From Acidimicrobiia bacterium (GTDB lineage Bacteria; Actinomycetota; Acidimicrobiia; UBA2766): a stretch of 46,597 bases of DNA. The notes under the pieces were generated by a model. The model ran no database searches and was not told where the DNA came from. It was given only the letters and a program-made list of their open reading frames with translations. A program made the position numbers and the translations under genes. The stretch lies in contig JADZDR010000068.1 in NCBI GenBank assembly GCA_020850945.1, positions 1 to 46,597 of the forward strand, given 5' to 3'. Positions 35,061-46,597 of the stretch are shown piece by piece (the first letter of the stretch is position 1; every line of letters starts with the position of its first letter).

Positions 35061-36110
35061 TCAGGCGGGTGAAGCAGACTCGACCTCGGGACGTTCCGTG
35101 TGGTCCTGGACCGGTGTCCTGTCCACGAGCGCGAACAGGACGAGGCCTGCGACGACGAGTCCACTCTGGTAGGTGCTGTGCATCCCGGCACCCCCGGCGA
35201 CGAGCAGGGCGAGAGCCGCCGCCTCACCCCTCCGACCGGCCCGGAACAGGGCCACGCCGCTGTATGCGAGGGACCCGGCCGCGGCGACGTAGAGGACACC
35301 CGGGAGGAAACCGGCGAGGCCGAAGTTCCAGAGGGACAGGATCTGTCCTGTCGCCGTTCCCGAAAGCCGGAGGGCAGCCACCAATACGGCAAGGCCGACA
35401 CCGGCACCGATCGCCCACAAGTCGGCGCCGTGGCTGCGCAGTCGGCCGGATGAAGCCGTCTTGGTTGACCTGACCAGCAAGGGAGTAGCGACGGCGAAGA
35501 CCGTCGTGGCGATCTCCCCGAACCCGAGCAGCCACGTGACTCGCAGCGAACCCAGGCCGGCCTGACTCGCTATCTGTGTCAGCGCGTGCAGCCCGAACGC
35601 CATGAAGCCGACGACGAATGCCCCGACCACGTAGAGCCGTGCACGGGAGACGCAGGCCGCGGCCGGCGCGCACAGCATCACCGCCGTGAGGGTCGCGATG
35701 GTCGAGAAGATCGGCATCCCGGCGAGACCGGCGCAGCCACCTACGACGAGAAGCACGATGCCGGCCAGGCCCATGCGAGACGCCGTATTGCGCGACCCCG
35801 CCAGAGCCGAGCCCGCGACGAGGAGGGCGGCGAGAAGGAGTGCGACCGACAGGTAGTAGGCGAACCTGCCGAAGTCCGAGACCGCGGACAGGGGTCCGGC
35901 TGCGGCGTCGAGACCGGGGATGTGGATGAACGTCCGCGTGCCGAGACGCAGCACGAGCAACTCGACGAGGACGACAACTGCCAGCGCCCCGAAAGCATCA
36001 CGCCACAGGCCCGCGAGACGCAGCCGCGCCGACACAGGTGACGCGTCGACGGTGGACGGGAGGTCTGCCACTGTCCCTGCACGGGGGCCGCCTGCCGAGG
36101 CGGCGATCAC
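35061..36110 (-). CDS. Polytopic membrane protein, last gene of the molybdoenzyme cluster
   Basis: The protein has 349 residues with about nine to ten membrane helices and no soluble domain. A few His residues sit near helix ends (FIHIPG, GLHALTQ, GMHSTYQ), but no clear haem-binding pair can be asserted. The GTG start overlaps the stop of the haem-subunit gene (GTGA) and has GGAGG about 6 nt upstream, so it is translationally coupled to the cluster. It may be the membrane partner that passes electrons to or from quinones. I recognise no family. Confidence 0.75.
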   Translation of the reverse strand: MIAASAGGPRAGTVADLPSTVDASPVSARLRLAGLWRDAFGALAVVVLVELLVLRLGTRTFIHIPGLDAAAGPLSAVSDFGRFAYYLSVALLLAALLVAGSALAGSRNTASRMGLAGIVLLVVGGCAGLAGMPIFSTIATLTAVMLCAPAAACVSRARLYVVGAFVVGFMAFGLHALTQIASQAGLGSLRVTWLLGFGEIATTVFAVATPLLVRSTKTASSGRLRSHGADLWAIGAGVGLAVLVAALRLSGTATGQILSLWNFGLAGFLPGVLYVAAAGSLAYSGVALFRAGRRGEAAALALLVAGGAGMHSTYQSGLVVAGLVLFALVDRTPVQDHTERPEVESASPA

Positions 36111-37081
36111 GGGAGCCTCCAGAAGACGAGGGCGATTCCGCCCATCACGACGAACGGGGCGGCGAGGAGCAGGAACATGAGGGAGGTCCTGTTCGGTGGA
36201 ATGGGCTCCGCACCGATCGTGAGGGTCGTGAACTGGGACACCGACTTCAGCCCGTTTCGCTCCCTCTCGGCGCCGTTCCAGACCGCGACTGCGACGTCTG
36301 TCTCGGTGCCGGCACTGAAGGTCGGCTGCCCCTCTCCAGGTGAGGCGAAGTCGCGCCTGAACACGACCTGCCACTCGTCTCCCGTGTGAGCAGCCTTGCC
36401 GGAGACGACTTGCGAGTCGGCCTGCGTCAGGGTGCCGAAGCCGAGGGCAACGAGGTTCTGGACAGGCGTCTTGGCCTGGATAGCCATGATGTTCCCGACG
36501 TCCCGAGCCGAATACCAGAGGGGTTCCGTGGACGGGTACATGTCGACGTACCCCCGCTCGCTGATCTCCTCCACGTTCTCGGGGATGCCGCGTTGGGTGT
36601 CGGCGCGCCACTGCCAGATGTTCACACCGATGTCGACCTGGCCCATGCAGAAGAAGGGAACGGTCGACCCGGCGGTCGCCGGGAACTGGACGGCGGCTGC
36701 GTCCGCGAAGCGGGTGAACCCGTCCGATTCGTCGTTCAACGTCGGATCCCGGTAGGTGAGGTGGACGTAGAGCTTGTCGTCCGTGTGCACAGATCGAACC
36801 GTCGCAGCCGGGATCTGCCCGCCCCCGAACGGGTAGGTCGTCTTCTGCGCGGAGAGGGGGACCTCGACACCCGGCACGCTGCTCCAGACCCCGTCGGTCG
36901 GGTCGAGGGCCGGCGCCTTCTCCGTCTGGAAGGACGTGACCCCGGCAGCCTGGGGTACAGCCGGATTCACACCCGCCGCGAAGAGCGCCGAGGCGGCGAC
37001 GAGTGTGACCGCACCCGCGGCGGCGAGGGTTCTACGCCTCCCTCCTTCCCACCTGCGACCAAGACCTCTCGGGAACCTCAT
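36107..37081 (-). CDS. Haem b (gamma) subunit, ethylbenzene-dehydrogenase/DMSO-reductase type II
   Basis: The protein has 324 residues. An N-terminal export helix (TLAAAGAVTLVAASALFAAG) leads into a beta-rich EB_dh domain. Landmarks are DDKLYVHLTYRD, the FFCMGQVD segment and VVFRRDF. NGLKSVSQFTTL lies near the C-terminus. In EbdC/DdhC proteins a Met and a Lys ligate haem b, and the Met of FFCM and the Lys of LKSVSQ are candidates. A C-terminal membrane helix (LMFLLLAAPFVVMGGIALVF) anchors it on the outer face. Overlaps of 4 bp exist with the genes on both sides. Confidence 0.88.
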   Translation of the reverse strand: MRFPRGLGRRWEGGRRRTLAAAGAVTLVAASALFAAGVNPAVPQAAGVTSFQTEKAPALDPTDGVWSSVPGVEVPLSAQKTTYPFGGGQIPAATVRSVHTDDKLYVHLTYRDPTLNDESDGFTRFADAAAVQFPATAGSTVPFFCMGQVDIGVNIWQWRADTQRGIPENVEEISERGYVDMYPSTEPLWYSARDVGNIMAIQAKTPVQNLVALGFGTLTQADSQVVSGKAAHTGDEWQVVFRRDFASPGEGQPTFSAGTETDVAVAVWNGAERERNGLKSVSQFTTLTIGAEPIPPNRTSLMFLLLAAPFVVMGGIALVFWRLP

Positions 37082-37875
37082 GATGATTCCGCCTTCCTGC
37101 GCAGCGTCACGGGTGTGGACCGGGAGTCAGCCGTCTCGCACGAGGGTCCACATTCACCGTCGTCGGGTTCGGGCATCGGCAGCGGCTCGTCGAAGGTCTG
37201 CGCGGGTTCGACGCCGGTGGCGGCCATGTCGGCGAGGATCCAGTCGTGCACGAGCCTCCCCGCCCGGACGTGGAGTTGGTGCGCTCCGACTGCCTCGGCC
37301 CGCTGTCCGAACTCCGGCCCCCAGCAGCCGAGATGATCGGCGAGGAACCTGTCCTGGGTGCGGCGGCATTCCGTGACCTCGGCCTCGCCGAGGTGCTCGA
37401 GGGCCCACGCCTCTTTGTGGGTCATGAAGGCCATGAACTCGAGCTCGGTCAGGATGTGGTCCGGGCGCTCTCGCTCGAGGCCGCCGAAGCGCAGGCCGTG
37501 CGCGAGGTAGAACCCGGCGACATCTGCCATCACCTCGGTCTGGCGGAACACGTCCCGGCCGTTGAAGGCGGTCTCATAGGGAGGGCAGTCCTGTGAGTCG
37601 ATCTGTGTGAAGAGGAGGCCGTGTGCCGCCTGTAGCTCCTCGACAGGTGGGCGTGAGTCGATGATCTCGATGACCGCGGCGATGTCCGCGGCCAGAGCCG
37701 GTTCGTCGAGCTCGATCTCACGCAGCATGTCTGCGAGCCTCACGAGGCTGTCGAGCCGGTCCTGGGATGGCCAGCCGAGCGCGTTCACACACAGGTCGTA
37801 GACCGCCGCCCGTCCGGTCGCCACGTGCCAGTCGGGGGTCTTCGACCATGTCCTCTGCTTGGTGCTGTGCGTCAT
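37078..37875 (-). CDS. TorD/DmsD-like molybdoenzyme chaperone
   Basis: The protein has 265 residues and is mainly helical. The TorD/NarJ family pattern is visible: ARAAVYDLC-like helix (GRAAVYDLCVNAL), LFTQIDSQDCPPYET (the family P-P-Y/C-x-S/T motif), DVAGFYLAHGLRF and HILTELEFMAFM. A Cys-containing tail (ECGPSCETADS) follows. It should hold the catalytic subunit for cofactor loading and Tat export and is not part of the mature enzyme. Its start overlaps nothing, and its stop overlaps the gamma-subunit start by 4 bp. Confidence 0.88.
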   Translation of the reverse strand: MTHSTKQRTWSKTPDWHVATGRAAVYDLCVNALGWPSQDRLDSLVRLADMLREIELDEPALAADIAAVIEIIDSRPPVEELQAAHGLLFTQIDSQDCPPYETAFNGRDVFRQTEVMADVAGFYLAHGLRFGGLERERPDHILTELEFMAFMTHKEAWALEHLGEAEVTECRRTQDRFLADHLGCWGPEFGQRAEAVGAHQLHVRAGRLVHDWILADMAATGVEPAQTFDEPLPMPEPDDGECGPSCETADSRSTPVTLRRKAESS

Positions 37876-37886
37876 GCGGATCCCTC

Positions 37887-39122
37887 TCAGATCGAGTTGA
37901 GCTTGCCGGGCCGCTGGAAGGTCGGTTCCATGACCGGAACCCTCACGATCTCGCGGCCCTGGCTGTCGAGCCCGACGACTGTGTCGTCGTAGATCTCCTG
38001 CTTCTGGCCTCCGATGTTGAGATCCGCGACCTTCGGACCGGGGATGATGTCGAAGGCGAAGATGATCTTCTGTGTGACCCGGAAGAGCTGCAGCACGGCC
38101 AGCAGCTCACGCGAGGGATTCGTGTAGGCGTCGATCGCCGCGTCGGTGCCGGGCCCGAACATCTGATGCAGGTACTCGCGCGGGACCCAGCGTGGCGGGA
38201 TGTAGTAGACGTTGGGCTGAGTGCCGAACTGCGGGTAGAGAGGCAGGGCCACCTTCGCGACGTGCACGAGGTAGTACATGGGGTTGCGCGGGTCGTCCAC
38301 CCAGAGACCGTCGCTGCCGACCTGAACCAGTCCCTGCAGCCGGATCTTGCCCACGCACGCGACCATGCACCTCGTCTCCATCGGGAGCCCGTCGCTGAGG
38401 GGATCCTGACCTTCGAGTCGCGGATAGCACGCGATGCACTTCTCGGATGTACGTGTCGTCGGCCTGTACATCGCCTTCTTGTACGGGCAGGCCTCGACGC
38501 ACTTGCGGTATCCGCGGCAGCGCTCCTGGTCTATGAGCACGACCCCGTCCTGCTCACGCTTGTAGATCGCCTTGCGGGGGCATGCGGCGAGGCAGGCCGG
38601 GTAGGTGCAGTGGTTGCAGATCCGCTGCAGGTAGAAGAACCAGCCCGAGTGGGCGGGTAGCTCGACACCCTCCTTGGCCCATTTCGTGGCGGCGTCCTCG
38701 TAGATGTTCGGCGCCTTCCAGTCGTCGTTGGAGGGGATGTAGCCCGTGACCACCTGGTCCTTGCCGTTGGCGGTCTCGAAGATCGTCTTCCCTTCGAACT
38801 GCCCGTACGGGGCCTCCACCTCACGTCTCGCCTCGGGGTTCCACACCTGTCCGTCGGGGTCTCTGTCAGCCTGCATCTCGAGCAGGTTCACGTCCCAGTT
38901 GAGCGGGTAGCCGCCGAACGGCTTGCTCTCGACGTTGTTCCACCACATGAGCTCCTGGCCGGGCGAGAACGTCCATGTGGACTTGCAGGCCATCGAGCAC
39001 GTCTGGCACGAGATGCAGCGGTTGATGTTGAAGACCGCCGCGAACTGACGGCCACCACCCGGCCCTGCCGGATAGGGGTACGACATCGTGCGCCCCAGGT
39101 GCCAGTTGTAGACGTCAGCCAT
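37887..39122 (-). CDS. Fe-S electron-transfer (beta) subunit of a type II molybdoenzyme
   Basis: The protein has 411 residues, homologous in pattern to NarH/DdhB/EbdB/NxrB. Four cysteine groups are visible: CISCQTCSMACK (first Cys at residue 36), CNHCTYPACLAACP, CRGYRKCVEACPYKKA, and CIACYPR with CMVACVGK. In the third group Tyr replaces a Cys, which predicts one 3Fe-4S and three 4Fe-4S clusters, as in related enzymes. It has no export signal of its own and should travel with the Tat-borne alpha subunit. It overlaps the 107-aa gene by 8 bp. Confidence 0.93.
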   Translation of the reverse strand: MADVYNWHLGRTMSYPYPAGPGGGRQFAAVFNINRCISCQTCSMACKSTWTFSPGQELMWWNNVESKPFGGYPLNWDVNLLEMQADRDPDGQVWNPEARREVEAPYGQFEGKTIFETANGKDQVVTGYIPSNDDWKAPNIYEDAATKWAKEGVELPAHSGWFFYLQRICNHCTYPACLAACPRKAIYKREQDGVVLIDQERCRGYRKCVEACPYKKAMYRPTTRTSEKCIACYPRLEGQDPLSDGLPMETRCMVACVGKIRLQGLVQVGSDGLWVDDPRNPMYYLVHVAKVALPLYPQFGTQPNVYYIPPRWVPREYLHQMFGPGTDAAIDAYTNPSRELLAVLQLFRVTQKIIFAFDIIPGPKVADLNIGGQKQEIYDDTVVGLDSQGREIVRVPVMEPTFQRPGKLNSI

Positions 39123-39438
39123 CGAGGCTGCCTCCTCCGTGCGCGGGTCGAACGGGGATCCGTCGACGTGTCAGGCGTTTGGCTGCATCGGGCCCGAAGA
39201 CCTCCACGATGAGATCGCGGCAGAAGTCGGGACCACGGCGGGCATAGATGTCGTGCGTCCCCTGGTACTCCGAATCCTCGAAGAGCCTCCAGATGCCGTC
39301 GGGCGTCGTGCCGATCAGCGCGTACTCCTCGACGAGGGCGCGGCCGATCACCGCATCGGCATCCGTGCCGGGGGGGTATTCGATACGTGTCCCGACCAGC
39401 TCCATCGGGTCCTCGGCTTCGAACTGCTTCTCGGCCAC
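39115..39438 (-). CDS. Orphan 107-aa protein between alpha and beta genes
   Basis: The protein has 107 residues, is soluble and has no signal peptide. Segments include EEYALIGTTPDGIWRLFEDS and GTHDIYARRGPDFCRDLIVE, with a basic tail (RLTRRRIPVR). A single Cys is present. It starts with GTG 2 bp after the alpha stop and overlaps the beta start, so it belongs to the same transcript. I do not recognise the family. It could be a small subunit, an assembly factor or a regulator of the enzyme. Confidence 0.75.
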   Translation of the reverse strand: MAEKQFEAEDPMELVGTRIEYPPGTDADAVIGRALVEEYALIGTTPDGIWRLFEDSEYQGTHDIYARRGPDFCRDLIVEVFGPDAAKRLTRRRIPVRPAHGGGSLDG

Positions 39439-39440
39439 GG

Positions 39441-42400
39441 TCAGGACCCCTTCAACTTCAGGAAGCCGCCGGCGATGTACGCCTTCATGTCGCGGTCCTC
39501 GTCTCCGGGGGCGGTGCCCTTCGTACCCGGCTTCCAGGGACCGTCACCGTTGATCCCGCCGTCTTCGGCCTTGGTGATCTTGACGAGTGTCTCCTTCGGT
39601 GTCGTGTTGACCGCGTGGTTGTCGACATCGAATCCGAACACGAAGGCCATCTTGCCGGCCTGCTTGTGGAACAGCGTGTCCGTCTGGTGGATCGGCGGAG
39701 CCCAACCCCGCGTGACCGACTGCTGGCTGCCGTGGCGGAAGCTCGACTGGTAGCCCGTGTCCTTGGCGAGGGCCCGCCCGTCGGCCCGTTCCCGGGCCGC
39801 GGCGACGGTCCGGGGGGTGGCCATCCAGTAGGCGTGCTTCATCATCGTCACGCCTCTCGGAAAGGCGGGGTTGTAGTTCGCGCGGGCGAGGAGCCGTGCC
39901 GTGTCCATGAAGGAGTCGTCGTCCGCTGCCCCTATGTACGGCCGGTCGTCCGGGTTCGCGTCGATCCAGATGTAGTCGCCGTTGGCGATACCGAGCTCCT
40001 TGGCATCCGCGGGGTTGATGTGGAGTTGGGCGTCGCCGACACCCGGCAGGCGCTTGTCCTCCCGGTAGACGTCCGAGAAGTTGGAGTTCCAGATCCAGTG
40101 CCAGTCGACGACCGCCCAGGAGGAGTGGGTGCTGTGACGTGACTTGGGTGTGAGGAACGTGAAGCGATACCCGTCCTCCCAGAGTGGATTCTTCGTCTTC
40201 TTGGCGTCCGCCCACGACATCTTGATGTTGCGGACCGACCGTTCGTCGGCCCCCCTCGCGTCCGGCGGGATCCCGTAGTCGACGGGTTTGACGTACGGGC
40301 TCGTCGAGACGATCACGTTGGGCATGTAGGGGGTCGCTTCGACCGCCTCGCGGTGGACGATGAGGTTCTCGCCGTATTCGATGGCCTCCGGGATGTCGAC
40401 GTAGGAGTTCATGCGGCCGGTGTCGGTGTAGAAGGGGAGGCTCTGCTCGATCTGCTCCATGAACGGGATGCGGGGATAGGACAGGTACTGGAAGAGGGCA
40501 CCTCCCTCGATCCCGTACTTGCCGGCCATGATGTCGCCGACCGTGTACCCCTCGGTCGTCCAGCATGCGGCCAGCACCCGGTCCAGGTAGACCTCGGGCT
40601 GCTTCGAGAACATCCAGTACTCGGCACAGCGGGGCTCGTCGATCTCCTCGGCCAGGGCGTTGCCCACTGACGCGAACACCTCGATGTCGTCGATCGTGTC
40701 GTGGAGTGGTTCGATCCCACCCTTCCAGATCTGGAGGAAGGGGTTCGAGCACGACCCCGCCATCTCGAGACTGGTGAACTCCACCCAACTGTTCACAGGC
40801 AGGATCACGTCCGCGAACTCGGCCGAGCCCGTCCATTCGATCTGCTGGTCGACGATCATGTCGATCTTGGGATTGACGTTGTGGACGAGCTCGTAGGCCC
40901 ACTTCGCCTGGTTGATCAGGTTCGCGTTGTTGTACCACATGACCTTCGTGGGTGTGGGCATGTGGGTCTTGCCGGTGAAGACCTTGCGGCCCTCGTCCGG
41001 CGTGTCGACGACGAGTGGCCGGTCGCCGAAGCCCCAGTAGCTCGTGTCCTCCCCGTGCATGTAGTGGTGGACGTCGTCGAAGGTGTACTTGGCGGTGGGG
41101 TCGGTGAGCGGCTTGAAGGGGTTCTCGTTGACGTATCCGCCCACACCCGGCCCGAACCAGTCGGCCGCCTGGAAGATCGGGCCCTTGTAGTTGCCCGCCC
41201 ACGTGCTCACACCGGAGCCGAGGCTGCCTATGTTCCCCGTGAGCATGAGGAGGAGGTACGCCGCCCGGTTGGCGAGGGTCGCGTGGAACCAGTGGTTGAT
41301 GCCTTCACCGATGTGGATGGCAGCCGGCTTGATCGTGGCGAGGTCCACGGTGAGCTGCTCGATGAGGTGGGCGGGTGAGCCCGTGATCTCCTCGACGGTC
41401 TCGAGGTCGTAGTCCTCGAGGTGCCGGCGGTACATGGCGAACGCCGTGGCGACCTCGACCTTCTCGCCGTTGGTGAGCGTGACCTCGCCTTGCCAGTCGA
41501 GCGTGGGGGCGATGCCTCGGGCCGCGAGCTTGTCGCCGACGTCGTCACGGGTGATGGCCCTGAGCGCCTGCGTGCCCGAGTCCCATACGACCCGGTCGCC
41601 CGTCTTCTCGTACTGGTCGTCGGTCATCCCGTAGAGGGTGAAGCTGGGGCTGTCCTTGGGGAGTTGGTTCGTGTAACCGTCGAAGACGTCCTGGGGGCGG
41701 AGCCGCTCGAGGGTGTCGAGGCGGACGAGCAGGGGGAAGTCTGTGAAACGGAGGAGGAAGTCGGCGTCGTAGAGGTTGCGGTCGATGAGTTGCTTGGCAA
41801 CGCCGAGGAGGAGCGCTGTGTCGGGCAGGCCGGCGCGGACGGGGATCCAGTAGTTCGCCTTCGTCGCCGGCGGACCGTACTCCGGGGAGATCGAGACGAT
41901 CTTGCCGTCGCGCTCCATGACCTCGATCATCCAGTGCGACTCCGGCATCTTGTTCTCGACGAGGTTCTTGCCGAGGCCGATGAGCAGCTTGGAGTGCCTC
42001 AGGTCGCTGAAGTCGACTTCGGTCGACTGCAGCCCGTGCACGAAGGGAAAGCCCGGTGCCTGATCGCCACGCCACGTGTACTCGGACCACTCCCTCCCTC
42101 CTCGTGCCTCCTTCTCGCCGACCTTGCGGACCTTGGCGTCGAGGAGGGCGAGCATCGTGGCGAAACGCGTGAGGGAGAACTTGCCGGCGACACCGTGGAC
42201 CGGTAGGGCGGAGCCGAACTTCATGGTCCGGACGCCGGACTCCTCCCAGAACTCGAGCATCTCGGGGTCGTACCCGTCCTCCTCGACGAGACGCCGCTTG
42301 CCCTGCTCGCCCGAGTAGGCCTCGGCGATGGCACGCAGACCCTTGGCCGTGTAGCGGGTCGCCTCCTTCCAGGACACGCGGACGAATGTGTCCTCTCCGC

Positions 42401-42944
42401 GCCGGTCGAAGCGGTACTTGGTCCGCAGGCTCGGACTGTCCGAGAGCGACGGGAAGCCGTCGTCCGCCCACTCCTTCCATCCGGCACGCAGCGACGGGTA
42501 CTTGCCCCTGTAGGGGCCGTAGACGCGCCGCGCCATCGTGAACCCCTTCGGGCAGGCACGCGGGTTCCAGGCGATTCCCGTGCGGTTCCCCTGCGGGTCG
42601 CCGTACATGCCCCCGTCGTAGGCCTGCTCCACCCGCGTGATGACACCGTTGCGCACCATGGCACGGAGGCGGCACATGTGCGTGTCGTTGGGGGCACAGA
42701 TGAAGAGGAAGCTGCTGTCGTAGGCGTACTGGTCCCGGTAGACGCGCTCCCACCCGTGGTCGGGATAAGCGACAAGCGGGTTGTCTATTCCCTCGGCGAC
42801 CTGGAGGTAGGTCCAGCCGGAGGACGATTCGGCGTACGCGGCCGCGGCGAGAGCGGCACCTGTGCCCGTCCAGCGCAGGAACGTACGGCGCTGCATCTCG
42901 TTCGGCGCCTTCTCGGGCTGGGCATTCTGGTCGTCACGGTCCAC
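39441..42944 (-). CDS. Molybdopterin catalytic (alpha) subunit, type II DMSO reductase family, Nxr-like
   Basis: The protein has 1167 residues. A Tat signal (QRRTFLRW, twin Arg at 19-20) implies export folded with cofactor. The proximal Fe-S motif is C83-x3-D87-x3-C91-x39-C131. It corresponds to the H-x3-C-x3-C...C of NarG but with Cys and Asp in the first two positions, a pattern I associate with nitrite-oxidoreductase-like members. WRGDQAPGFPF places a candidate Mo-ligand Asp at about residue 294, as in NarG-type enzymes. LLIGLGKNLVENKMPESHW and ISPEYGPPATKANYW bind pterin. The substrate could be an N-oxyanion, chlorate/selenate, a sulfide or a hydrocarbon. GTG at 42944 has AAAGGAG at 8 nt. 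Confidence 0.9.
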   Translation of the reverse strand: MDRDDQNAQPEKAPNEMQRRTFLRWTGTGAALAAAAYAESSSGWTYLQVAEGIDNPLVAYPDHGWERVYRDQYAYDSSFLFICAPNDTHMCRLRAMVRNGVITRVEQAYDGGMYGDPQGNRTGIAWNPRACPKGFTMARRVYGPYRGKYPSLRAGWKEWADDGFPSLSDSPSLRTKYRFDRRGEDTFVRVSWKEATRYTAKGLRAIAEAYSGEQGKRRLVEEDGYDPEMLEFWEESGVRTMKFGSALPVHGVAGKFSLTRFATMLALLDAKVRKVGEKEARGGREWSEYTWRGDQAPGFPFVHGLQSTEVDFSDLRHSKLLIGLGKNLVENKMPESHWMIEVMERDGKIVSISPEYGPPATKANYWIPVRAGLPDTALLLGVAKQLIDRNLYDADFLLRFTDFPLLVRLDTLERLRPQDVFDGYTNQLPKDSPSFTLYGMTDDQYEKTGDRVVWDSGTQALRAITRDDVGDKLAARGIAPTLDWQGEVTLTNGEKVEVATAFAMYRRHLEDYDLETVEEITGSPAHLIEQLTVDLATIKPAAIHIGEGINHWFHATLANRAAYLLLMLTGNIGSLGSGVSTWAGNYKGPIFQAADWFGPGVGGYVNENPFKPLTDPTAKYTFDDVHHYMHGEDTSYWGFGDRPLVVDTPDEGRKVFTGKTHMPTPTKVMWYNNANLINQAKWAYELVHNVNPKIDMIVDQQIEWTGSAEFADVILPVNSWVEFTSLEMAGSCSNPFLQIWKGGIEPLHDTIDDIEVFASVGNALAEEIDEPRCAEYWMFSKQPEVYLDRVLAACWTTEGYTVGDIMAGKYGIEGGALFQYLSYPRIPFMEQIEQSLPFYTDTGRMNSYVDIPEAIEYGENLIVHREAVEATPYMPNVIVSTSPYVKPVDYGIPPDARGADERSVRNIKMSWADAKKTKNPLWEDGYRFTFLTPKSRHSTHSSWAVVDWHWIWNSNFSDVYREDKRLPGVGDAQLHINPADAKELGIANGDYIWIDANPDDRPYIGAADDDSFMDTARLLARANYNPAFPRGVTMMKHAYWMATPRTVAAARERADGRALAKDTGYQSSFRHGSQQSVTRGWAPPIHQTDTLFHKQAGKMAFVFGFDVDNHAVNTTPKETLVKITKAEDGGINGDGPWKPGTKGTAPGDEDRDMKAYIAGGFLKLKGS

Positions 42945-43049
42945 GTGGGTTGCTCCTTTGACCCCGGACGCGGGATGTCGAGCCTGAGATTGGCCGATTT
43001 TCGCCGTCGGGGACAGGGACGGGTGTAGGACTTTGGGCCGGATGAATTT

Positions 43050-43796
43050 CTACTCTTGATGTGACTTTCGACCCTTGGCTTCGGGCGTGAGACCCTTCGC
43101 GGCCGCGTGTCCCGACGCGTTCACGCCGTCCTGCACCCTGCACTGGAGGATGCAGCCACCAGCGCGCGGGTCCCTGACCACGAGGCCATCGACATCGAAT
43201 CCCCCGAATGCCTCGACCATCCCCTGGATCCGCCCGAGGTGGGCCTCACACACGATGTCGGGCGCAGCAATGGCGGCCGACTCGTACGCGCAACGCCGCA
43301 TCACGATGTCCGTACGGGTGAAGCAACTGTCGATCATGGGGTCGAGGCCGTCCACTTCGAGCTGGGCGAGGAGGTCCCGGAGCGGTTCGCTCGAGGGCTG
43401 GCCGCCGAGACGCAGGCGCAGGCCGGACTGCCTCCCGACCGCCCGGGGTGATTCACCGCTCTTGAGCATGTCGATGAGCAGCAGGGCCAGCGTTTCGAAG
43501 CCACACCTGGTGCCCCACGCTCCGACCGCGGCCGGATGCACCCGGTACTGGAGCCGCGGGCGACCGGCGACGGCACGATCCTCCTCGGTCGAGTGCACGA
43601 CGAGATGCGCGTCCTCGAGCTTGGCGAGATGATGCCGGATCGCGTTGTGCGTGATGCCGAGCTCGTCGACGAGACCGGCCACATCGACGAGGCCGTCACG
43701 CTCGGCGATGAAGCTGAAGATCGCAAAGCGCGTGGGATCGCCCAGAGCCCGCGCCTGCACCTGCACGACGTCGTCTGCCCTCTGCGGTTTTCTCAC
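43050..43796 (-). CDS. ArsR/SufR-like transcriptional regulator with cysteine cluster motif
   Basis: The protein has 248 residues. An N-terminal winged helix (ALGDPTRFAIFSFI, then LGITHNAIRHHLAKLEDAHLV) is followed by a C-terminal domain with C-x13-C (RRCAYESAAIAAPDIVCEAH) and a further GGCILQC. This layout resembles SufR-type regulators that bind an Fe-S cluster. It is the first gene of the minus-strand molybdoenzyme cluster and probably controls it. An inverted repeat (CACAA-N4-TTGTG) overlaps its own GTG start, which suggests autoregulation. No Shine-Dalgarno is visible, so it may be leaderless. Confidence 0.82.
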   Translation of the reverse strand: MRKPQRADDVVQVQARALGDPTRFAIFSFIAERDGLVDVAGLVDELGITHNAIRHHLAKLEDAHLVVHSTEEDRAVAGRPRLQYRVHPAAVGAWGTRCGFETLALLLIDMLKSGESPRAVGRQSGLRLRLGGQPSSEPLRDLLAQLEVDGLDPMIDSCFTRTDIVMRRCAYESAAIAAPDIVCEAHLGRIQGMVEAFGGFDVDGLVVRDPRAGGCILQCRVQDGVNASGHAAAKGLTPEAKGRKSHQE

Positions 43797-43809
43797 ACAA
43801 TCATTTGTG
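43796..43809. promoter_or_regulatory. Inverted repeat at the regulator start, candidate operator
   Basis: CACAA (43796-43800) and TTGTG (43805-43809) are exact complements separated by 4 bp. The site overlaps the regulator's start codon, where the -10 region of a leaderless promoter would meet the start. Confidence 0.5.
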
Positions 43810-44104
43810 ATTCACGCCCGCCTGGCGCACAAGGGACTTTCGGCCGGTGCACGTCGGGACTCTCTCGCCTAGGCGACGGCCCGGGGTTGTGAGGACTTGA
43901 CATCGTGATACCGGGTTGTCGTGTTGCAGCGGATTCCTCACACATGTCGCGGGGCAACAAGGGCTTCGGCACTCACAGGCGTCGCGGCACTCTTCCGGCA
44001 GCGGCCCGAGTGCACCTGAGTGTCTCTCAGTACAAGCCGGACTGCGAAGAACTGGCCCGAGTCAGCCCCAACGTGAGAAACGGCGCGTGACCAGGGCGGC
44101 AAGC
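43797..44104. other. Gene-poor stretch upstream of the regulator
   Basis: No gene is convincing here. The left end must hold the regulator promoter. A TTGACA hexamer occurs at 43897-43902 on the plus strand but lacks a matching -10. A 61-codon plus-strand frame (43905-44090) has no domain, no Shine-Dalgarno and no codon bias that I would trust. Confidence 0.5.
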
Positions 44105-44140
44105 GGTGGGGCTACGTGGACTCGAACCACGGACCTCACG
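44105..44140 (-). tRNA. 3' fragment of a tRNA gene (candidate attachment core)
   Basis: On the minus strand the sequence reads from the end of an anticodon stem (CGTGAGG) through a T-arm (CGTGG-TTCGAGT-CCACG) to the acceptor strand (TAGCCCC) and discriminator A. There is no D-arm or 5' half upstream, so it is not a complete tRNA. The sequence would pair with a 5' GGGGCTA, as in Ala/Ile-type tRNAs. Such 3' tRNA fragments are left by integrases that use tRNA genes as attachment sites. Confidence 0.75.
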
Positions 44141-44279
44141 GGCGGGACAGATCCCGGGGGCGTTCAAGTTGGGCACGGGCCCGCGGGCGCGGTGGCGGTT
44201 CAGCAGGACGATGCTGGCGAACTGGTACCGCCACCAGATGCAGGAGTCCCTCGAGCGCTACCGCGAGCAGCGGAAGTGA
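44141..44279 (+). pseudogene. 3' remnant of an excisionase-like (AlpA/Xis HTH) gene
   Basis: In frame with the stop at 44277-44279 the translation contains GQIPGAFKLGTGPRARWRFS followed by a helix ending in LERYREQRK. The I-P-G-A-F-K-L-G...W-R-F-S pattern is the wing and third-helix region of MerR-like excisionase/AlpA domains. The N-terminal half is absent, because the reading frame runs directly into the tRNA fragment. It is probably a truncated gene left at an integration junction. Confidence 0.6.
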
Positions 44280-44386
44280 TGCCTTGTGCTCAGGTCCGGG
44301 CGGTTGGGGGACGTCCGGGGGTATGCCCTGGCTGCTTGGATGGGTCCGCCGGGGGATGCCGTGGGTCGGGACCCGCACTTGGACTA

Positions 44387-44420
44387 CCCTATAATCCAGG
44401 ATAAAGGGCAACCTGGACTA
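44387..44420 (+). promoter_or_regulatory. Fic promoter with operator-like repeats
   Basis: A perfect TATAAT -10 box lies at 44390-44395. It overlaps an imperfect inverted repeat centred on ATCCAGGAT (CCCTATAATCC against GGATAAAGGG, 44387-44408). A 7-bp direct repeat, TGGACTA, occurs at 44380-44386 and 44414-44420, bracketing it. Confidence 0.55.
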
Positions 44421-45646
44421 TGAGGGATCGTAGGTGCGGGATGCGGGGTCGTCTCGTTGTGAGCACTTGGACACATGACCCGTCGGTGTATGCGCCTGCG
44501 AGGTACCGCAGGGCGTGTCGGTACGAGGCATTCGTGCCGGAGAGGGTTACGGGTATCGAGGTGGTGATGTCGGGCGACGTGGCTGGAGTTGTCTCTGATG
44601 CCGAGTCTGTCGTGCGGTCGCTGAATGATCGTGCACGTCCGGCATTGCGGCCTTTTGCCAGGCTTCTGTTGCGTACCGAGTCGATAGCGTCGTCGAAGGT
44701 GGAGGGCCTACAGGTCGATACACGGACATTGGCGAAGGCAGAGGCCCGCGCCGAGGCCGGACGCAGGGCGGGTCGAGACGTGCAAGAAGTCCTGGCGAAT
44801 GTCGATGCGATGGAGCTGGCCATCGAGAAGACGAGCTTGGTCGGTCGGATCGGGCCCGAGGACATCGTGGCCATCCATGCTGCCCTCATGGAGTCAACCC
44901 AGCCTCACCTCGCGGGGCGGGTGCGGACCGTGCAGAACTGGATCGGCGGGAACGACTACAACCCCTGCGACGCAGACTTCGTACCTCCGCCACCGAGCGA
45001 AGTCGGCGGTCTCCTGAAGGATCTCTGCGAGTTCGGTGACACCGAGGAGCTCCCCCCGCTCGTCCAAGCGGCGATCGCGCACGCCCAGTTCGAGACGATC
45101 CACCCCTTCGTCGACGGCAACGGCCGCACGGGACGGGCGTTGATCCATGTCATCCTGAGACGCCGCGGGCTCGCCCCCGACTACGTACCGCCCATCAGCG
45201 TGGTACTGGCCAGGGACCGAAACAGCTATATCGACGGCCTCACACAGTTCCGCAACGACAACATGGATGGCTGGATCGCCAAGTTCGCGGCTGCCACAGC
45301 ACGCTCAGCCATCCTCGCCGAGGATTATCTCGCTCAGATCAGCCAACTCCAGCAGTCCTGGCGAGACAGGGTCGACGCGATCCTCGATCTCCGTGCCGAT
45401 GCGGCGGCATGGGCGATCATCGAGGTCTTGCCCGGCCACCCCGTCATCACGGTTCCAGTCGCCGTCGCCGCCACGGGACGCAGCAAGTCAGCCGTGAACG
45501 TCGCCGTAGACCATCTTGAACAAGCCGGCGTTCTGCGCCCCCTCTCGAGCGGTCGCCGCAACCGCGCATGGGAAGCAGACGGACTCCTCGACATCCTCGC
45601 CGACCTCGAAGCGGCCGACACACCCCCAAGAGCGGTCCCACCGTGA
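44420..45646 (+). CDS. Fic-domain AMPylase-type protein with N-terminal inhibitory helix
   Basis: The protein has 408 residues. The Fic catalytic motif HPFVDGNGRTGRA is near residue 228. Upstream, near residue 90, SSKVEG matches the inhibitory motif [ST]-x3-E-[GN], whose Glu blocks ATP binding in class II Fic proteins. The C-terminus (about 340-400) contains a winged-helix-like segment (VAVAATGRSKSAVNVAVDHL), which could bind its own promoter. Fic enzymes usually transfer AMP to Tyr/Thr/Ser of target proteins. The first 300 bp use more T-ending codons than the neighbourhood, consistent with transfer. An ATG at 44441 is an alternative start. Confidence 0.9.
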   Translation: MRDRRCGMRGRLVVSTWTHDPSVYAPARYRRACRYEAFVPERVTGIEVVMSGDVAGVVSDAESVVRSLNDRARPALRPFARLLLRTESIASSKVEGLQVDTRTLAKAEARAEAGRRAGRDVQEVLANVDAMELAIEKTSLVGRIGPEDIVAIHAALMESTQPHLAGRVRTVQNWIGGNDYNPCDADFVPPPPSEVGGLLKDLCEFGDTEELPPLVQAAIAHAQFETIHPFVDGNGRTGRALIHVILRRRGLAPDYVPPISVVLARDRNSYIDGLTQFRNDNMDGWIAKFAAATARSAILAEDYLAQISQLQQSWRDRVDAILDLRADAAAWAIIEVLPGHPVITVPVAVAATGRSKSAVNVAVDHLEQAGVLRPLSSGRRNRAWEADGLLDILADLEAADTPPRAVPP

Positions 45647-45815
45647 CAAGGGCATGGGTGCCGACAAACCCCTCTCTGACAGAAAAGCTCTTGCGAATCC
45701 CTACTGATAGATAAGTGAAGTAGGGCGAGAAGCGAGAAGGAGAAGATGACCGTTACTACCGTTGAGGGCGTGGCCTCACGTCCTCATCCTGCAGGCTCGT
45801 CTCCGCCTGCACGGT
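45647..45815. other. Flank between fic and the CRISPR array, possible leader
   Basis: The stretch is visibly richer in A and T than the rest of the window, especially 45,680-45,760. It contains an inverted repeat CCCTACT...AGTAGGG (45699-45705 with 45719-45725). A purine-rich Shine-Dalgarno-like run (AGAAGGAGAAG) follows, then an ATG at 45746 whose frame runs into the first repeat. It could be the CRISPR leader if the array is transcribed rightward. Confidence 0.45.
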
Positions 45816-46597
45816 GCTGCAATGAGGCCGCCCCCTCTCGGAGGCGGATGGCCGTCGACTCCGGTTGTGCGGATCTCGACGTGGGGGCTGCAATGAGGCC
45901 GCCCCCTCTCGGAGGCGGATGGCAGGCACTGCAACGGGATCGACGACATATCGGAGGCGCTGCAATGAGGCCGCCCCCTCTCGGAGGCGGATGGAACGTC
46001 GGCAAACCCTTCCGGATCCGAGTCACATTCGCTGCAATGAGGCCGCCCCCTCTCGGAGGCGGATGGAATCCGTGGGTGTTGAGCCAGTGTGCGACGGCCG
46101 ATTCGCTGCAATGAGGCCGCCCCCTCTCGGAGGCGGATGGGCAGAGCTGCCGAATCCACGTTGCGAGCCGCAGGCGCTGCAATGAGGCCGCCCCCTCTCG
46201 GAGGCGGATGGGTTCTCGAACTTGCCCAACAGAGCTGCGGTCGTATCGCTGCAATGAGGCCGCCCCCTCTCGGAGGCGGATGGTCCGCTACGACGGCCAG
46301 TCAGAACCCCGCAAGAAAGGTGCTGCAATGAGGCCGCCCCCTCTCGGAGGCGGATGGCGAAAGCTTCTTCGACCGCCCAGTTGCGGGCGAGGGGATCGCT
46401 GCAATGAGGCCGCCCCCTCTCGGAGGCGGATGGATGTCATTTGCGTTCCGGCCAGTCCGGGAATTCGTGCTGCAATGAGGCCGCCCCCTCTCGGAGGCGG
46501 ATGGCGACTGGACCGAACTCGCCCAATGTTGGGATGCCTGCGCTGCAATGAGGCCGCCCCCTCTCGGAGGCGGATGGCTAGGCGACACCGCGGAATA
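45816..46597. CRISPR. CRISPR array, 11 repeats visible, continues beyond the window
   Basis: Eleven identical 36-bp repeats begin GCTGCAATGAGG and end GGAGGCGGATGG. They start at 45816, 45887, 45959, 46031, 46105, 46176, 46248, 46322, 46398, 46469 and 46542. The ten complete spacers are 35-40 bp and all different, and an eleventh is cut by the window end. The repeat has an internal near-palindrome (CCGCC...GGCGG). On the minus strand its end reads ATTGCAGC, close to the ATTGAAAC handle of many class 1 repeats, so direction is uncertain. No cas gene is in the window, and I do not assign a subtype. Confidence 0.97.

Follow-up and report, generated by a model that had tools for sequence, protein, structure and literature searches.

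A probable decayed attachment scar of a tRNA-Ile(GAT)-targeting element in an Acidimicrobiia genome

Fragments of tRNA genes left by integration have been called pervasive in prokaryote genomes (PMC9897764). Here we consider such a fragment in a draft genome of an Acidimicrobiia bacterium (97 contigs, 3.9 Mb, 98% complete), where a piece of tRNA gene is fused to the truncated end of a small gene resembling excisionases. The window, that is the whole stretch analysed, is the 46,597-nucleotide contig C68, which ends 2.5 kb to the right of the fragment. The original prediction, made from the sequence alone, took the fusion for an island boundary, with the intact tRNA to the right and the island in between.

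The tRNA piece occupies positions 44107-44138 on the minus strand. Its sequence, TGGGGCTACGTGGACTCGAACCACGGACCTCA, is the reverse complement of the 3' end of tRNA-Ile(GAT), comprising the discriminator base, the acceptor strand, the T arm and the variable-loop side without the CCA; the predicted polarity, a 3' fragment with its 3' end at the left, is thus confirmed for these 32 nucleotides. In relatives, the intact gene for tRNA-Ile(GAT) matches the piece at 86-94%, and the piece shows no mismatch to the first 32 bases of a 50-bp tRNA core found in a fuller module at the join of contigs C77 and C81. The anticodon arm, which is present in the 50-bp cores of the other copies, is missing from the 32-bp core of the window. 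ARAGORN found no tRNA in the window, as expected because only a fragment is there, and an Rfam search of the window returned nothing but one sub-threshold chance match. Our data support the view that this truncated attachment core was left behind by a tRNA-targeting element.

The small gene follows immediately. Its 3' remnant extends on the plus strand from 44139 to 44279, with a TGA stop codon at 44277-44279, and corresponds to about residues 39-84 of an 87-residue homologue encoded at C67:11522-11785 (64% amino acid identity). The tblastn alignment covers 47 residues (38-84 of the C67 protein, E = 7e-21) and starts at 44136; the two DNA sequences are 77% identical over 124 bp. With the C67 protein as query, tblastn shows no N-terminal half anywhere in positions 43000-46597. 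The small frame is therefore cut exactly at the tRNA fragment, at 44138/44139, as had been proposed, and since the homology starts right after the tRNA piece and the 5' half is missing, the proposal that a deletion or a second recombination cut the frame is supported as well. The excisionase label fares less well: the C67 homologue does contain an HTH_17 domain (Pfam PF12728, E = 3.5e-8, 34 bits) and has weak PHROG matches to excisionases, but it scores 19.7 bits against the NCBIfam excisionase family TIGR01764, under the cut-off of 28.8, and no integrase match was obtained on C67, where an excisionase (RDF) gene would be expected to stand beside its integrase. That contig also bears a T2SSE (CpaF/TadA-like) gene. 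The only homologue with an adjoining integrase is a distant one on a viral contig (L131), which sits directly before the integrase, while the homologues in other genomes of the class are found mostly among chromosomal-looking genes. Likeness to the HTH_17/'excisionase family' consists of the HTH_17 domain in the intact copy and of this viral-contig homologue, the HTH fold by itself would not tell an excisionase from other small regulators, and 'excisionase-like' would seem to be the furthest label that the evidence allows.

To the left of the core lie two further blocks. The match between the window and the C77/C81 module does not stop at the tRNA piece, since it includes the 36 bp to its left, for a total of 68 bp at 94% identity (E = 3.9e-23) to C77:54896-54963 and C81:42-109; these 36 bp (44071-44106, plus strand, ACGTGAGAAACGGCGCGTGACCAGGGCGGCAAGCGG) correspond to the end of the P arm that adjoins the core. 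A second block at 44009-44067 on the plus strand (...GAGTGCACCTGAGTGTCTCTCAGTAC...GACTGCGAAGAACTG.CC...) corresponds to the tail of the P' arm, with 81% identity to C81:217-275 and, from 44005 to 44067, 86% to C23:47172-47234. A further P'-arm tail, without a tRNA core, was seen on the minus strand of C37 (2508-2578; L043), with 46 bp at 96% identity to C23; the genes around it look chromosomal, and one of those nearby is a ribbon-helix-helix antitoxin-like gene. The order of the blocks in the window, namely P' tail (59-63 bp), 3 nucleotides, P end (36 bp) and truncated core, is both compacted and permuted, as the P'-arm block lies to the left of the window's core but to the right of the cores of C81 and C23. 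To the left of 44005, neither further P'-arm homology nor a second core was found, which leaves the scar without a visible left end.

Two fuller modules in the same genome, one at the C77/C81 join and one on C23, indicate how these blocks may once have been arranged. Each consists of a P arm, a 50-bp tRNA-Ile 3' core that runs through the anticodon arm, and a P' arm. The right end of C77 and the left end of C81 overlap by exactly 127 bp, which is an assembly-graph join. Repeated motifs are found in both arms, GTGAG/CTCAC in the left and CTCAGT in the right; as many repeats occurred in 0 of 2000 shuffles for C77/C81 and in 20 of 2000 for C23. Moreover, C77 and C23 can be aligned in their P arms, with an equally good alignment obtained in 1 of 1000 shuffles. 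The core of the full copies is exactly the 3' half of the tRNA, and the overall anatomy resembles an attP of a tyrosine integrase predicted to act at the anticodon loop, which is among the usual tRNA integration subsites described with Islander (PMC4383910). The repeated blocks would be the integrase arm sites; because no integrase was found in the window or near any copy of the module, the arms are arms by anatomy alone. Core and repeat-bearing arms are seen in C77/C81 and C23, the window copy being truncated and permuted. When the C23 module was compared with 395 genomes of the class, the matches listed covered essentially the tRNA part (about query positions 18-68), i.e. tRNA-Ile genes, and none among them extended into the P' arm. 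Against plasmids and phages, only pieces inside the tRNA part were matched. Exact-pattern scans for the core-P' junction found nothing in 84,980 genomes or in viral contigs, and scans for the P' motif found nothing in viral contigs.

Taken together, the feature is probably an old, dead and compacted integration scar of an element with the 3' half of tRNA-Ile(GAT) as its target, and deletions would have removed its cargo and the end of its core. The element would have carried an attP made of a P arm, a 50-bp copy of the tRNA 3' half and a P' arm. Loss of the cargo from between the ends of a copy, integrated or tandem, would then have left the P' tail, 3 nucleotides, the P end and the core's first 32 bp; indeed, the two arms lie so close together as to suggest the loss of all that lay between the two ends of a copy. 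A later deletion would have fused the core, which now ends just short of the anticodon arm, to the middle of the small HTH_17 gene. Because the expected crossover lies in the anticodon arm, which the core does not reach, the junction with the HTH gene is best read as such a later deletion, and the resulting site would no longer be able to recombine. The homologies, their order and the exact junction are seen in the sequences; the loss of the cargo on the spot and this order of events are what we infer. The occurrence on C37 of a P' tail alone, with no core, speaks against this scenario, as do the lack of an integrase near any copy and the failure to find a second core or more P'-arm homology to the left.

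Could the junction instead be the product of integration itself? In that case an element with a tRNA-Ile attP would have inserted straight into the HTH gene, and 44138/44139 would be the crossover. The end of the tRNA identity does coincide with the start of the gene remnant, apparent non-tRNA loci also hold other copies of the module, and crossovers in the T loop are known in other elements (PMC1762012, PMC4383910). However, the other cores reach through the anticodon arm, which places the expected crossover about 10 bp further on, and the 5' half of the HTH gene was not found on the left, so that we consider secondary-site integration unlikely.

The original prediction, in which the fragment would be attR and the island would extend through the genes on its right to an intact tRNA-Ile and an integrase past the contig end, is improbable. 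The orientation of the fragment fits, the Fic gene and CRISPR array on its right are typical island cargo, and the end of the contig 2.5 kb on leaves room beyond. However, the P'-arm sequence is on the wrong side, an order that a simple island boundary does not produce, and the core ends short of the anticodon arm. Furthermore, the tRNA-Ile gene belongs elsewhere. Four relatives carry tRNA-Ile(GAT) directly after gyrB-gyrA, and in those that were aligned a short gene stands between gyrA and the tRNA. In our genome C43 carries gyrA and runs out in a coding stretch beyond it, before any tRNA; the position of this stretch suggests that it is the short gene, presumably DUF3566. The C77/C81 module sits at the native tRNA-Ile locus, because three genes of C77 are collinear with the far side of tRNA-Ile in the relative G002, with the core at the right end of C77. 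All 44 tRNA matches in the assembly were typed (44/44) and none is Ile-GAT; the intact gene, expected to be needed by the cell, most likely falls in the assembly gap between C43 and C77/C81. The 127-mer branch at C77/C81 may arise from a mixture of integrated and empty sites. Nothing places C68 at the gyrA/tRNA-Ile locus, and in an attempt to place it by synteny with relatives only a gene of 2174 amino acids was matched, to weak homologues. The matching intact tRNA that was to be sought on the right is thus absent from the 2.5 kb to the contig end, and its locus is split over C43 and C77/C81 instead of being on C68.

The downstream integrase that was also anticipated is likewise missing from the window, where the right of the feature holds the Fic gene and the CRISPR array, and the 98%-complete assembly contains no unassigned integrase. 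Just two integrases were found in the genome, one of Xer type on C54 and another next to tRNA-Met on C39, the latter being the only non-Xer integrase found. This tyrosine integrase of 518 amino acids (C39, L092, 2418-4160) lies directly at the 3' side of the intact tRNA-Met, and the start of C39 probably holds an integrated element.

It is mildly unusual for one genome to hold several attP-like modules that lack an integrase. They might form a non-autonomous family with a tRNA-Ile core, spread by an integrase acting in trans, of which the window would be a decayed member, although we regard this as improbable. Toxin-antitoxin-like or Fic genes neighbour the modules: a Gp49 toxin with an HTH antitoxin on C23, an AbiEi-like gene on C81, Fic genes on C77 and in the window, and the antitoxin-like gene on C37. 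If the modules prove mobile, they would be small carriers of defence genes mobilised in trans. The Fic gene on C77, a distant one (33% identity), ends about 0.4 kb before the module, and a truncated gene piece of 124 bp (C77:54646-54769, about 19647-19770 of L040), 85% identical to C55:6935-7058, lies between them.

Finally, the tRNA piece is open in frame with the remnant, from a GTG at 44106 to the stop codon (57 codons), but that this is a functional fused small gene and no attachment relic is very improbable, as the HTH helices are missing, the remnant product has no Pfam, NCBIfam or PHROG match and there is no promoter-like site.

The decayed scar that we favour is of an already known, ordinary kind. 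It resembles the displaced 3' tDNA fragments described with Islander (PMC4383910) in being a tRNA 3' fragment of the type left by tyrosine-integrase integration, and differs from them in having no adjoining cognate tRNA or integrase, a core truncated before the anticodon and permuted arms. Among the features that define an island boundary in Islander, the window possesses the tRNA-end fragment and lacks the integrase within the island; as to a cognate intact tRNA on the same replicon, at the right side and in the right orientation, the assembly shows no intact tRNA-Ile(GAT), the expected place of which is next to gyrA, on contigs other than C68. Integrative and conjugative elements of actinobacteria also use att sites at tRNA 3' ends, and tandem tRNA-borne elements, their instability and tRNA remnants serving as integration sites have been reported (PMC3218068). 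In contrast, we saw no int, rep or tra gene next to the modules described here, a primase-helicase on C81 aside, and that survey found no such element in the acidimicrobial subclass (PMC3218068). The locus illustrates that a tRNA attachment scar can still be readable after far-gone decay, and cautions against assuming, from a lone tRNA fragment, an island between it and a nearby tRNA.

Other genes of the window deserve mention. To the right of the feature, a Fic/DOC-family gene with a C-terminal winged helix (44420-45646, plus strand, Pfam Fic E = 2.7e-22) is followed by a CRISPR array that runs off the contig end (45816-46597), with 11 perfect copies of the repeat GCTGCAATGAGGCCGCCCCCTCTCGGAGGCGGATGG at a spacing of 71-76. 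The window shows no recognisable cas gene, and the spacers gave no convincing match to the element contigs (13-17 bp only). On the left, an ArsR-like regulator (43050-43796), for which a scan for relatives of the gene gave none, follows a DMSO-reductase type II operon (36107-42944) that encodes an EB_dh-type gamma subunit, a NarJ-like chaperone, an iron-sulfur subunit that resembles TIGR03478 with a score under the cut-off of that family, and a molybdopterin subunit with a TAT signal. By eye, an A/T-richer, inverted-repeat-like stretch is seen just before the Fic gene (44360-44420), and is possibly an operator.
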